From the NCBI GenBank assembly GCA_002215645.1, contig NGFI01000002.1, positions 62,001 through 126,000 on the forward strand: 64,000 nt of DNA, in the 5' to 3' direction. Shown piece after piece: positions 21,769 through 29,141 of this stretch (position 1 is its first letter; each line of letters begins with the position of its first letter). The translations under genes and the position numbers were made by a program. The notes below the pieces were generated by a model that did no database searches, was not told the DNA's origin, and was given only the letters and a program-made list of their open reading frames with translations. The stretch comes from Gemmatimonadetes bacterium 2013_60CM_65_52 (GTDB taxonomy: Bacteria; Gemmatimonadota; Gemmatimonadetes; Gemmatimonadales; Gemmatimonadaceae).

Positions 21769-22827
21769 CTACTTCCCCACCTTGGCATAATCGACCATCC
21801 ACGTCCGCAGCCCGTAGTTCGGCAGGTTCTTCGTGTGGCCGGCGACGAGCTGCTTGTTGTACTCGACGAAGTACAGATCGAACGGATCCGACTCGTCGGC
21901 GTCGCGAATGAGGAGATCGGTATCCGTCATCGTGAGCTTGCCGAACGTCAGGCGCGCCCCGCGGAAGTACACGAAGTTGCTCACGCCGCTGTCCGGGCGA
22001 ACATAGGTGCCGAAGATCGTGTCCTCGGCCGTGCGGGCAAACTGCTGAACGAGCATGTCGCCGTCCACGCGCACCGACGTCAGGCGCCCATCGACCAGCG
22101 GCGGCGGGATGATGGCCAGCGGCTCGAGGAAGAGGTCGTCGCCCTTGACGGAGACGCCCCGCGCCTTGCTCAAATCCATGAAGTCGGCGAGATGGAGGTG
22201 CAGCGCGTGCATGAGCGCGAGGCCGTTCACGGAGAAGATCTTGAGCTCGTCGGGGTGAAGGCGTAGCCGGCCGTCCGGTTGCAGCGCGGGGATGCTCTTC
22301 ATCTCGAAGGGAATGTCCACGCCCTTGTGCAGGGTGCCCTTCTGAATGAGCGCGCCGTTCTCGATGTGAACGCGAAGATGTTTGATGGGCGCGCCCGGAT
22401 AGTTGAACGCGACGTCGTTGAGCAGTGCACTGATCCCGTCGCCATCGAGCGCGACGGTGCCATTCGTCGCCTGAACGCGGAACGACTTCGGATCGTCGAG
22501 CGACGCGATGGCACCAGCCACGCTCGAAATCACGCGTCCTCGGAGCGACCGCACGTGCATGACGCTTCGGCTGTCGATATGGAGATCCACGTTGCGCATC
22601 TCCATCCACAAGCTCGAATCAGGCGCGCTCATCGTTGCGGACGACCGAGGTGGGTCGAGCACGGCGGCGGGCGGGCGCATGCCGGCCGTGAGCCACAGCG
22701 CCGCGGCCGCTCCCGCGAAGAGCGCACACCGCCGCAGCGTGGCTGCGCCAATCGGATGAGCCTGGTGCGCCTGAGGGGTCACCGCCACCGCCAGTTTGGA
22801 CGGAGCAACGGCCATTGCACCATCCAT
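21769..22827 (-). CDS. Conserved envelope protein, possibly LmeA/DUF2993-like
   Basis: A 352-residue protein with one N-terminal membrane segment ('CALFAGAAAALWLTAGM') and a long soluble part built of beta-rich repeats ('GRVISSVAGAIASLDDPKSF', 'VALDGDGISALLNDVAFNY', 'ALIQKGTLHKGVDIPFEMKS', 'DDLFLEPLAIIPPPLVDGRL'). This alternation resembles lipid-binding DUF2993/LmeA-type domains, but I am not sure. It starts 11 bp after the metallophosphoesterase-cupredoxin gene and is the last gene of the sigma/anti-sigma operon. The ORF track fuses it with a shadow frame of the upstream gene; ATG 22827 removes that. Confidence 0.65.
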   Translation of the reverse strand: MDGAMAVAPSKLAVAVTPQAHQAHPIGAATLRRCALFAGAAAALWLTAGMRPPAAVLDPPRSSATMSAPDSSLWMEMRNVDLHIDSRSVMHVRSLRGRVISSVAGAIASLDDPKSFRVQATNGTVALDGDGISALLNDVAFNYPGAPIKHLRVHIENGALIQKGTLHKGVDIPFEMKSIPALQPDGRLRLHPDELKIFSVNGLALMHALHLHLADFMDLSKARGVSVKGDDLFLEPLAIIPPPLVDGRLTSVRVDGDMLVQQFARTAEDTIFGTYVRPDSGVSNFVYFRGARLTFGKLTMTDTDLLIRDADESDPFDLYFVEYNKQLVAGHTKNLPNYGLRTWMVDYAKVGK

Positions 22828-22838
22828 TCCCGAGCGTG

Positions 22839-24185
22839 CTAGGCGGTCACAATGATCTTCCCCTGCATCTTCGGATGCAGCGAGCAGAAGTAGCTGTACG
22901 TCCCCGGCGTTCTGATGGCCGCCGTAAAGCGATGGTCCGTGTCCAGCACCGGTGACGGCTTGAAGGCATTCTGTACGCTCACGATGAGATGCGGAACGTC
23001 GTCCTTGTTGACCCACACCACCGGCGATCCAGCCTTGACGGAGAGCACATTCGGCGTGAAGCTGAAGTTGTCGATGCCAATCTCGTTGGCCGCGAGCGTG
23101 AGGCTCCTCCGCTCCGTCTTTCGCCGCATCATCGCGTCGTGGGAGGCGGCCTCGAACGCCGGCGCCTCGCCGGACAGGGTCGCATCGACCACGGCCAGCG
23201 CGCTTCGTCCGGGAACGAACGTCACGTTGGTGATGCCGAGCACGCTCTTCAATCTCTCGGGCTCGACCTTCATCGGGCCGGGCGATGGTGCCGTGCCCGG
23301 TGTCGGCTGGGGAAAGGCTGTGGACATCGCCGTGTGGAAGGACACGTTGCCCTCGACCTTCTGCATGATCTGGTGAATGTGACCGTTCAGGACCGTCACG
23401 GACCCGAACCGCTTCAGCAGCGCCAGCGCTTGCTGAGAATCGTCCGTACCCCAGCCCCATTCCGGATAGACCGTCCACAGTGGAACGTGCGCGAACACCA
23501 CCACCGGCGTGCTGGCTGAAAGGTGGGTGACATCCCTCTTCAGCCACGCGATCTGCTCCGCGCCCAGCGAGCCAAGGCCACCCGCTTTCAGGTCGAGCAC
23601 GTTGACCAGACCGACGAAGTGCACGCCCGAATGATCGAAGCTGTGCCAACCGCCGCCGTGCGTGCCCTTCCCATAGCGCTGGAGGTACCCTGCGCCGTTG
23701 TCCGTCGCGACGTCATGCTCGCCTGGGACGTAGAAGACGCGATCGGTCTTCAGACCCTTCAGCACGTCGCGGGCGGTGTTGAACTCCTCAGGCTTCGCGA
23801 GCTGGGTGATATCGCCTGTGTGCAGCACGAGGGCCGGGCTCTGTGGCAGCGCGTTCACTCGCGTTACGGCCTCCTGAAGCGTCGCCGTCACATCCTTGTT
23901 TGCTTCCTTGCTGAAGCCGATGTGACTGTCGCTGATCTGGACGAAGAAGATGCTCTTTCGCTGTGCGTCGGTGAGGAACGGCAATCGACCCACGGGAAAG
24001 GACGTCGGGATTCCGGCCGCCATTCCCCACACCGTCGCGGTGCCGGCCCACGCCATACAACGCAGAAAGCCTCGGCGATCCAGGCCGTCGTCACTGGCCG
24101 CAGTCGTGATGAAGTTGGATCCGGCTGGATGGGTATTTCCGTGTTCGTCGAACCGGTCGTCGTCGCGGTCGCGGTGGCGGCTCAT
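22839..24185 (-). CDS. Tat-exported metallophosphoesterase fused to a type 1 copper (cupredoxin) domain
   Basis: A 448-residue two-domain protein. A twin-arginine signal ('GLDRRGFLRCMAWAGT') precedes a calcineurin-like phosphoesterase with its metal ligands in order: 'QISDSHIG', 'VLHTGDIT', 'VPGEHDV' (GEHD in place of GNHD), 'VVFAHVPLW' and 'VLNGHIHQ'. The last 90 residues are a plastocyanin-like domain with an intact blue-copper site: His 399 ('DDVPHLIV'), Cys 434, His 437 and Met 440 in 'YFCSLHPKM'. Function is unknown; a copper-linked periplasmic phosphatase or pyrophosphatase is plausible. It lies 71 bp after the anti-sigma gene and is probably in the same sigma-controlled operon. Confidence 0.88.
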   Translation of the reverse strand: MSRHRDRDDDRFDEHGNTHPAGSNFITTAASDDGLDRRGFLRCMAWAGTATVWGMAAGIPTSFPVGRLPFLTDAQRKSIFFVQISDSHIGFSKEANKDVTATLQEAVTRVNALPQSPALVLHTGDITQLAKPEEFNTARDVLKGLKTDRVFYVPGEHDVATDNGAGYLQRYGKGTHGGGWHSFDHSGVHFVGLVNVLDLKAGGLGSLGAEQIAWLKRDVTHLSASTPVVVFAHVPLWTVYPEWGWGTDDSQQALALLKRFGSVTVLNGHIHQIMQKVEGNVSFHTAMSTAFPQPTPGTAPSPGPMKVEPERLKSVLGITNVTFVPGRSALAVVDATLSGEAPAFEAASHDAMMRRKTERRSLTLAANEIGIDNFSFTPNVLSVKAGSPVVWVNKDDVPHLIVSVQNAFKPSPVLDTDHRFTAAIRTPGTYSYFCSLHPKMQGKIIVTA

Positions 24186-24256
24186 TGAAGTCGGTCCTCC
24201 GTGGATAGTGGCGTGAGATCATGCCCTCTCCATCCAAGACCGTCCGGCGTTCGACG

Positions 24257-25015
24257 TTATTCCCGACGATACAGGGTGACGAATTGCTCGAGCTCACGGG
24301 CGTTCAGATCGGACGCCACCCAAAGCTCCACACCCCCATCGCTCCAATGGACGACGTGGTATCCCTTCTCGATGGACGTTACCGGGGTGTGCGCGGTGCG
24401 GTCCTCTGTCGGCCACGAGAAGACATTGATGACGTGCTGGCGTCGCACATACACCACGGTGGCGACGGTCCGTCCGCCGACGTAGTCCAGCCGGCCACCC
24501 GCGAGTGGAAAGCCGGCCGAGTCGAGGCGGGGCACGAGCGGTGAGAGATCGACGCGTCCGTTGAACCACGGTTTGACGTTGTGCGAATCGTTCGACGCCA
24601 CGTCCGTCAGGTGACCCGGCATGAGCGACCGTAGATGGCTCGACAGCACCTGCTCCGCGATGGCCGGTCGCGACGCTTCTCGACGCGCGACAGCGAACGA
24701 GGCTCCCCCACTCACCACGGCGATGAGCGCACCGGCGACAAGCAGGCCCGTCCACGGGCGGCCGGGCGTCGTGACGTCGGCGAGGACTCCCGTTGATTGT
24801 GAGAGCGCGCTTCGAATACGAGCCTTGAGCACATCGGGCGCGCGTGGCCGAGCGAGCCCTTCCCGCAAACGTCGTGAAAGGGATTGCAGCATCTCGTGTT
24901 CGGCGGCGCAGGCCGCACACGATGCAAGGTGATCTCGCATCGTCTCCGCCTCCTCTGGCATCAGCTCGCCGTCCACGTATGACGTCAGCGCGTCACGACA
25001 CTCCGCGCACCGCAT
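24257..25015 (-). CDS. Anti-sigma factor with zinc-finger (zf-HC2) domain
   Basis: A 252-residue membrane protein. The N-terminal ZAS domain 'RCAECRDALTSYVDGEL' through 'HLASCAACAAEHE' carries the His-x3-Cys-x2-Cys zinc site of ECF anti-sigma factors. One membrane helix ('GLLVAGALIAVVSGGASFAVA') follows, then an extracytoplasmic domain ending 'VELWVASDLNARELEQFV'. It starts one base after the sigma factor stop, so the two are coupled and it should hold the sigma factor inactive at the membrane. ATG 25015 fits better than the track start at 25072, which lies within the sigma gene. Confidence 0.9.
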   Translation of the reverse strand: MRCAECRDALTSYVDGELMPEEAETMRDHLASCAACAAEHEMLQSLSRRLREGLARPRAPDVLKARIRSALSQSTGVLADVTTPGRPWTGLLVAGALIAVVSGGASFAVARREASRPAIAEQVLSSHLRSLMPGHLTDVASNDSHNVKPWFNGRVDLSPLVPRLDSAGFPLAGGRLDYVGGRTVATVVYVRRQHVINVFSWPTEDRTAHTPVTSIEKGYHVVHWSDGGVELWVASDLNARELEQFVTLYRRE

Positions 25016-25016
25016 G

Positions 25017-25541
25017 TCAGCTCGCCTCCTCGATGAGAAGACCCAGTGAGGACGCGAGTCGTTTGCGCGCACGTGCCAGCCGCGACATGACCGTCCCCAT
25101 CGGCACGCCGGTGATCTGGCTGATCTCCCGGTATGACAGTTCCTGTAGCTCGCGTAACACGATGACCTCGCGGAATTCGGGAGGAAGGCTGGCCACGGCT
25201 CGATCGATCACGGCGCTGTCGGATGAGCGGATGGCTCCCGCATCCGTGTCCGTTCCGCGGAGCTGTGACGACGTCTCGGCGTCAGCGTATGAGACGGAGA
25301 GACCGTCAGTGCGGTAGCGCCTTTGCCATGTGTAGCAACAGTTGCGAACGATGGCGAGCAGCCACGCCCGCGCGTCGCCGTCACGGAAGCCGTCGAAGTA
25401 CCGGAGTGCGCGCAGAACCGCCTCCTGGACGACGTCCTGCGCGTCGTGCTCGTCGCGAAGCAAGTGACACGCAAGCGCGTACGCATCATCCAGATGCGGT
25501 AGCACGAGTCGTTCGAATGACTCGACCTCGCGATGTGCCAT
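25017..25541 (-). CDS. ECF RNA polymerase sigma factor
   Basis: A 174-residue extracytoplasmic-function sigma factor. Region 2 is 'LACHLLRDEHDAQDVVQEAVLRAL' with 'ARAWLLAIVRNCCYTWQRR'; region 4 is 'LPPEFREVIVLRELQELSYREI' followed by the helix-turn-helix 'GVPMGTVMSRLARARKRL'. It leads a presumed operon of sigma, anti-sigma, cupredoxin-phosphoesterase and an envelope protein, which suggests an envelope or copper/redox stress signal. I could not identify its own promoter motif in the 84 bp upstream. Confidence 0.94.
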   Translation of the reverse strand: MAHREVESFERLVLPHLDDAYALACHLLRDEHDAQDVVQEAVLRALRYFDGFRDGDARAWLLAIVRNCCYTWQRRYRTDGLSVSYADAETSSQLRGTDTDAGAIRSSDSAVIDRAVASLPPEFREVIVLRELQELSYREISQITGVPMGTVMSRLARARKRLASSLGLLIEEAS

Positions 25542-25562: not shown

Positions 25563-25595
25563 GGACAGTACTGCCTTACCTGAAGACTACTGTCC
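25563..25595. terminator. Hairpin repeat related to the 8235-8283 element
   Basis: GGACAGTA (25563-25570) and TACTGTCC (25588-25595) form a perfect 8-bp stem. A second, smaller dyad follows at 25613-25626 (GGAC...GTCC). It sits between the stop of the broken sensor kinase and the start of the sigma factor on the same strand, so it can terminate the upstream transcript. The ACTGTCC word also occurs near 8279, suggesting a common repeat family. Confidence 0.45.
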
Positions 25596-25625
25596 GTACG
25601 CGCTTATTCCCGGGACGGTGCTGTC

Positions 25626-28145: not shown

Positions 28146-29030
28146 TCAGGGCGCGCGGGTCAGCGTGAACACGGTGAGCTCGGGCGCTGCGTGCACGCGC
28201 GCCGGCACGTAGCTGAATCCTATCCCGCGGTTGACGTAGAGCCGATTGCCTGGCTGGCCGTAGTTGTCGATCCAGCCGGCGACGCCCGAGCCCTCGTTGC
28301 TGAACCGGTGGCGCCATACCCAATCCGAGATGTATGGAATGCCGATCTGCAGCCCGTGCGTGTGCGCGGCGACGGCAAAGGGCGCCGCGCCCGGCGGAAC
28401 CTTCGCGTACGAATCGGGATCGTGCATGAACACGATTCGGGGAGCGCCATCGGGCACGCGGCCCAAGGCCGTCATCACGCTGTCGTCCTTCGCCCACTTC
28501 TCACCGACGCCCACGAGGTAGAGTTGCGGCGAAGCGGCGCTGTCCGCACCAGGCAGCACCAGCAACACGGCGCGATTGTCCATCATGTGGACACCGGCGC
28601 TGTCGAGTGCGAAGCGGACGCGATGCGCCACATGACTCACTTTCGCCGATCCCTCGTTCATGAGCGAGTAGTCGTGATTGCCGAGCACCGCATAAATGGG
28701 AAGTCGGTGGTCGAGCAGCGGCTGGAGGATGCCGAGCACCTCGGCCATCTGCGAATCGACGCTGTCGTCCGCATCGTACACGAAATCCCCAGCGATGAGC
28801 ACCGCGGCCGGATTGATGTCTACCACCTGGCGAACGAGCCGCCGGGCCGCATCCCGGTTCGACCACCACATGCCGATCTGAAGGTCGGCGAACACGACGA
28901 TCTGCTTCCCTTCCCAGGCCGTTGGGAGTTGCGGGATCGAAGCGGCCTCGTTCTCGCGCACCACGAATCGCGGCTCGATGGCCGTACCGTAGACTGTGAT
29001 GGCAGCCAGGACCTTCAGCAGCAGCCACAT
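28146..29030 (-). CDS. Membrane-anchored metallophosphoesterase (YkuE-like)
   Basis: A 294-residue calcineurin-like phosphoesterase with an N-terminal membrane anchor ('MWLLLKVLAAITVYGTAI'). Metal-site motifs are 'IVVFADLQIGMWW', 'VLIAGDFVYDA', 'AVLGNHDYSL', 'IVFMHDPDSY' and 'AAHTHGLQIG', all in order. The DLQIG in place of DxH is a known variation in this branch. Members hydrolyse UDP-diacylglucosamine or other phosphodiesters in or at the membrane; the substrate here is unknown. The track start at 29093 adds a basic N-terminal extension; neither start has a strong ribosome site. It is divergent from the hydrolase at 29142. Confidence 0.82.
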   Translation of the reverse strand: MWLLLKVLAAITVYGTAIEPRFVVRENEAASIPQLPTAWEGKQIVVFADLQIGMWWSNRDAARRLVRQVVDINPAAVLIAGDFVYDADDSVDSQMAEVLGILQPLLDHRLPIYAVLGNHDYSLMNEGSAKVSHVAHRVRFALDSAGVHMMDNRAVLLVLPGADSAASPQLYLVGVGEKWAKDDSVMTALGRVPDGAPRIVFMHDPDSYAKVPPGAAPFAVAAHTHGLQIGIPYISDWVWRHRFSNEGSGVAGWIDNYGQPGNRLYVNRGIGFSYVPARVHAAPELTVFTLTRAP

Positions 29031-29141
29031 CCGGGCCACCCGTTGGAAGAGGACGCTGTCGCCTCTGCATAGCGCGCACCGTCGTCGTGACATCGCGGGC
29101 GGCGCGGCACGCTCGCTGCGCGTTGGCGGATGGAGGTCGCC

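Follow-up and report, generated by a model that had tools for sequence, protein, structure and literature searches.

Four genes in a 64-kb window (the whole stretch of DNA analysed, 64,000 nucleotides) raise the question of what a metallophosphoesterase (MPE) fused to a copper protein does, and whether the sigma factor encoded beside it is its regulator. The original prediction placed an ECF sigma factor and a zinc-finger anti-sigma factor ahead of a Tat-exported, calcineurin-like phosphoesterase that ends in a type 1 copper domain, with a lipid-binding-like envelope protein after it. All four open reading frames are present on the minus strand between 21769 and 25541, and Pfam agrees with the first three assignments. 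The fusion matches Metallophos (PF00149) over residues 81-272 (E 4e-11; 44.2 bits against a cut-off of 21.5) and Cupredoxin_1 over residues 367-446 (E 8e-11; 42.4 bits against a cut-off of 27), and the twin arginines of its Tat motif, residues 37-38, are conserved.

Table 1. Genes and promoter sites of the locus, with positions in the window
Feature	Positions	Strand	Remarks
ECF sigma factor, 174 aa	25017-25541	-	Pfam Sigma70_r2 and Sigma70_r4_2
Anti-sigma factor	24257-25015	-	Pfam zf-HC2 (E 1.1e-9); begins 1 nt after the sigma stop
MPE-cupredoxin fusion	22839-24185	-	Pfam Metallophos and Cupredoxin_1
Fourth gene, beta-rich protein	21769-22827	-	Begins 11 nt after the fusion stop; no Pfam family
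ECF26-type promoter GGAATA-N17-GTC	25585..25610	-	69 bp upstream of the sigma start codon
Second GGAATA-N17-GTC promoter	24238..24263	-	Overlaps the anti-sigma gene at its end; ~78 bp before the fusion start

Distribution and gene linkage

Full-length copies of the fusion were found in 11 of 60 related genomes, and its distribution is therefore patchy. A scan of 84,980 species yielded at least 80 loci in which an MPE and a cupredoxin are fused or adjacent, those listed belonging to Gemmatimonadota, Acidobacteriota, Verrucomicrobiota, Armatimonadota, Rokuibacteriota and Alphaproteobacteria; plasmid records added carriers from Burkholderiales, Streptomyces and Mycobacteroides abscessus. Among 88 aligned members 30 are fused and 58 split, the cupredoxin gene of the split form being adjacent on the same strand, downstream of the MPE gene in 55 and upstream in 3. 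The fused state requires four changes on the MPE-domain tree, at least two of them forced by the starred branches, which suggests that fusion or fission of the two parts probably happened more than once.

Linkage to the regulatory genes was counted at the 42 loci with complete flanks, i.e., at least 3.5 kb on both sides. Both sigma and anti-sigma genes are present at 33 of these, and neither at the remaining nine, which include three from Microvirga. Relative to the MPE gene, the sigma gene is divergent in 21 cases, downstream on the same strand in 19 and upstream on the same strand in 11. The linkage thus survives rearrangement through three main arrangements, and gene order is not kept. The four-gene unit proposed in the original prediction is not supported, since the fourth gene does not share this linkage. 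Relatives of the fourth gene occur in 14 of the 60 related genomes. Several of these genomes have the fusion as well, and none of them has the two on one contig; nor was any relative seen among the listed fused and split loci of the 84,980-species scan. Because its relatives are never near the fusion in other genomes, we rejected a four-gene operon, and as judged from linkage the conserved unit is three of the four genes, namely sigma, anti-sigma and MPE-cupredoxin. The fourth gene is probably co-transcribed with the fusion here, outside the conserved module.

The fourth protein is beta-rich and, within the genomes searched, restricted to Gemmatimonadales (relatives at loci L114-L126). It had been labelled "lipid-binding-like", a role that we rejected: the protein matches no Pfam or NCBIfam family and no PDB fold significantly (best ToxS, E 0.03), despite a fair model with a mean pLDDT of 80.

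Promoters and the sigma/anti-sigma pair

The ECF26 sigma factors of Sinorhizobium meliloti use promoters with GGAATA at -35 and GT at -10, and the rpoE4 promoter reads GGAATA-N17-GTC (PMC6180224). Exactly two GGAATA-N17-GTC sites occur in the window, one before the sigma gene and one before the fusion, where 0.23 would be expected; 2 of 100 shuffles of the window reached two sites. Across the family, the exact promoter precedes 35 of 88 MPE genes (shuffled mean 0.22) and 16 of 59 sigma genes (shuffled mean 0.11), 0 of 62 anti-sigma genes and 1 of 66 cupredoxin genes. The exact promoter is missing upstream of more than half of the MPE genes, in part because several Acidobacteria have GTT where others have GTC. 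With the pattern relaxed to GT[CT], 96 of 144 sites at the 80 loci listed precede genes for MPE/cupredoxin (56), sigma (29), a DUF2231 protein (8) or a ferritin-like protein (3). As a positive control, the pattern recovered the published RpoE6-type SMa0142 promoter on S. meliloti pSymA (PMC6180224). In an independent plasmid search, the best plasmid relatives of the sigma factor adjoin MPE genes. Promoter placement, linkage and the plasmid search together provide good evidence that the sigma/anti-sigma unit controls the MPE-cupredoxin gene.

We also considered a genome-wide regulon in the window's own genome, which contains 44 loose promoter matches, most without the extended GGAATAA. None of the additional GGAATAA sites that were examined stands before a convincing gene, and this possibility was rejected. 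Ferritin-like proteins are encoded near the MPE in eight loci (L045:2871-4148 and seven similar ones), three of them preceded by a sigma-type promoter; the Acidobacteriota copies that were read are of the Tat type.

The sigma factor is 39% identical, in one pairwise comparison, to a pSymA sigma of S. meliloti with the rpoE6 (ECF26) gene arrangement. Two traits of that group are present, the GGAATA/GT promoter at target genes and a sigma factor co-encoded with a downstream membrane anti-sigma. We infer that the sigma factor is ECF26-like, an assignment based on promoter, gene order and moderate identity. The window module resembles the S. meliloti systems RpoE1, RpoE3, RpoE4 and RpoE6 in its GGAATA-N17-GTC promoter, sigma-anti-sigma operon and membrane anti-sigma, and the targets of RpoE4 likewise include a blue copper protein (PMC3511301, PMC6180224); it differs from them in its moderately similar sigma factor and in its target, which is MPE-cupredoxin instead of the sulfite oxidase SorT.

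The zinc motif HxxxCxxC of the anti-sigma factor (His29-Cys33-Cys36) is kept in 77% of the 64 aligned rows. One likely membrane span, read by eye, covers approximately residues 88-110, and the outer domain beyond it contains the conserved His127, His145 and His194 in the same alignment. The pSymA ECF26-type anti-sigma has no zinc finger, in contrast to the zf-HC2 domain found here. No second copy of the anti-sigma was found in the window's own genome. On an M. abscessus plasmid (L127:8020-8721), a membrane Rieske protein directly follows the ECF sigma gene, in the position of the anti-sigma; its N-terminus reads as anti-sigma-like to us, with no Pfam match. A Rieske domain in this position suggests redox sensing, and the protein is possibly a redox-sensing anti-sigma.

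The GEHD motif, the copper site and electron-carrier partners

The MPE domain carries the motifs D86-x-H88, D125, GEHD155-158, H233 and GHIH268-271. Over 88 MPE rows D86-x-H88, GD124-125, H233 and GHxH268-271 are invariant, and His157 is kept in 87. Motif III departs from the canonical GNHD, since Glu156 is present in all 88 rows and aligns with the Asn of the GpdQ GNHD motif. This Asn is a metal ligand. More distant relatives (27-36% identity) from Sinorhizobium, Rhizobium, Phyllobacterium, Methylocystis and Cupriavidus also have GEHD. The Asn-to-Glu change, the promoters before sigma and fusion, and the split form in other phyla were absent from the original prediction. Elsewhere in the window (28146-29093), a second metallophosphoesterase-like open reading frame has an ordinary GNHD motif and adjoins a kinase/response-regulator region.

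GpdQ is the nearest solved relative of the MPE domain, both by sequence and in a Foldseek search with a modest-confidence AlphaFold2 model of the fusion (mean pLDDT 64, residues 286-361 low), in which the placement of the two domains is too uncertain for a metal-site distance. The fusion shares the Metallophos fold and its best structure and PDB-sequence matches with the GpdQ/CpdA-type class III cyclic nucleotide and glycerophosphodiesterases, but is set apart by the Tat motif, GEHD in place of GNHD and the copper-domain partner, and scores 40.6 bits against the cut-off of 225 of the NCBIfam equivalog PRK11148. As for the copper domain, the site described earlier as an intact His-Cys-His-Met set is indeed complete: the predicted ligands His399, Cys434, His437 and Met440 are invariant in all 88 cupredoxin rows. 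Its nearest solved relative is amicyanin by sequence, and Foldseek returned amicyanin/plastocyanin folds. It has their fold and His-Cys-His-Met site, yet differs from amicyanin in being fused to or paired with an MPE and in scoring 43.7 against an equivalog cut-off of 110.2.

A type 1 copper domain could mean that copper itself is the signal and that the module is a copper-stress response with the cupredoxin buffering periplasmic copper. The three histidines in the outer domain of the anti-sigma and the SCO proteins encoded near rhizobial GEHD MPEs are in line with such a role. Against it, the shared neighbours included no multicopper oxidase, copper regulator or copper exporter that we saw, and type 1 copper sites generally serve electron transfer; we consider this reading very improbable. 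That the phosphatase is copper- or redox-gated, as the original prediction had it, is plausible, and gating by copper is possible; the recurrence of cupredoxin and cytochrome partners speaks for a redox link more than for copper as the signal.

These partners are found well beyond the fusion. A cupredoxin or a CxxCH protein is encoded within approximately 2 kb of the GEHD MPE at 12 of 14 plasmid-borne loci, among them five of the six most distant, which had been found through the MPE part alone. By comparison, none of 20 GNHD/GNHE control MPEs (17 from Gemmatimonadota genomes and three from plasmids) adjoins a cupredoxin or cytochrome, in counts of GEHD against GNH[DE] that ignore kinship. The carriers beside GEHD MPEs include cupredoxins, SoxA/TsdA-type cytochromes and a MauG-type dihaem protein. 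A plasmid of Phyllobacterium zundukense (L169:2174-8678) encodes in a row an SCO protein, a cupredoxin-like protein, a GEHD MPE, a SoxA/TsdA-type cytochrome and a cbb3-type oxidase. Loci from Acidobacteriota and Verrucomicrobiota yielded a cluster of 30 open reading frames for a DUF2231 membrane protein, 29 of them no more than 700 bp from the MPE; this partner is absent from the window's own genome.

The simplest alternative is a plain periplasmic phosphodiesterase under envelope-stress control, its copper domain being a passive copper store or tether that takes no part in functional electron transfer. The MPE fold and most motifs are ordinary, GpdQ is the nearest relative, and two GEHD MPEs (L130 and L170) have no carrier nearby. 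We regard this alternative as unlikely, given that the copper ligands are never lost in the 88 rows, that carriers of unrelated kinds (copper and haem) are repeatedly the neighbours of GEHD MPEs but not of the controls, and that DUF2231 is under the same promoter in nine loci.

The cytochromes beside distant GEHD MPEs, as well as soxYZ near the S. meliloti one, point to another alternative, in which the MPE handles sulfur oxyanions such as thiosulfate, sulfonate or sulfite, the cupredoxin passes the electrons on and the regulon is a variant of the RpoE1/RpoE4 sulfite response. RpoE4, an ECF26 sigma, controls sorT, a cytochrome c and the pseudoazurin gene azu2 in response to sulfite (PMC3511301, PMC6180224), the window module has the same promoter type, and at the M. 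abscessus locus a sulfite-oxidase-family protein is encoded two genes upstream of the sigma. However, the window module contains no sulfur gene and the 80 relatives listed have none consistently, sulfite generators elicit no response from two other ECF26 sigmas of S. meliloti (PMC3511301), and the nearest MPE folds are phosphodiesterases. A sulfur function appears distinctly unlikely to us.

A candidate redox-coupled metallohydrolase regulon

The explanation that we tentatively prefer, at a little short of even confidence, is an envelope-stress regulon of ECF26-like type with one main output, a dinuclear metallohydrolase that Tat exports to the periplasm and that is coupled to an electron carrier; the plain-hydrolase and copper-stress readings are less favoured. 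In this regulon, the membrane anti-sigma would hold the sigma factor through its cytoplasmic zinc-finger domain, and its outer domain, with the three conserved histidines, may sense a periplasmic signal. Once freed, the sigma factor would use the GGAATA-N17-GTC promoters to transcribe both its own operon and the MPE-cupredoxin gene, and the product would be exported in its folded state through Tat. The calcineurin-like domain would hold a putative dinuclear metal site with Glu in place of the usual Asn. The enzyme would be a periplasmic hydrolase, and its turnover or the redox state of its metals would depend on exchanging electrons with the type 1 copper protein, a partner attached here and encoded separately in other phyla. 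Of these elements, the sequence itself shows the linkage, the promoters, the export motif, the intact ligands, the Asn-to-Glu change and the repeated pairing with carriers; ECF26 membership, sensing in the periplasm, hydrolysis and electron exchange are proposed.

It is tempting to extend this proposal to all GEHD MPEs, which could form a branch of the calcineurin-like superfamily that is coupled to redox chemistry. Replacing Asn by Glu would retune the dinuclear site for electron exchange with a dedicated periplasmic carrier (a type 1 copper protein or a cytochrome c), making the enzyme an oxidoreductase or a hydrolase dependent on redox cycling. This extension is speculative and, in our judgement, unlikely. 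SoxB, a dimanganese sulfur-oxidation enzyme of the MPE superfamily, is comparable in that a periplasmic fold of the metallophosphatase type works together with redox partner proteins; Pfam and NCBIfam scans of the fusion gave no SoxB match.

In open-licence full text, we found no paper that joins a metallophosphoesterase and a cupredoxin in bacteria or describes the module, in agreement with its original designation as a candidate for an undescribed system. The parts, an ECF sigma, an MPE and a cupredoxin, are familiar; their combination pairs a hydrolase fold with an electron carrier across many soil-bacterial phyla, under a sigma factor of its own and with a diagnostic residue change where a metal ligand is expected. 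The correlation between GEHD and the carriers is the point most likely to surprise specialists. The sigma factor, its promoter and a single main target constitute a regulon that could easily be tested in cultured Mesorhizobium or Gemmatirosa. If the link between enzyme and carrier is functional, a very large superfamily known for phosphoester hydrolysis would have a redox-coupled branch.
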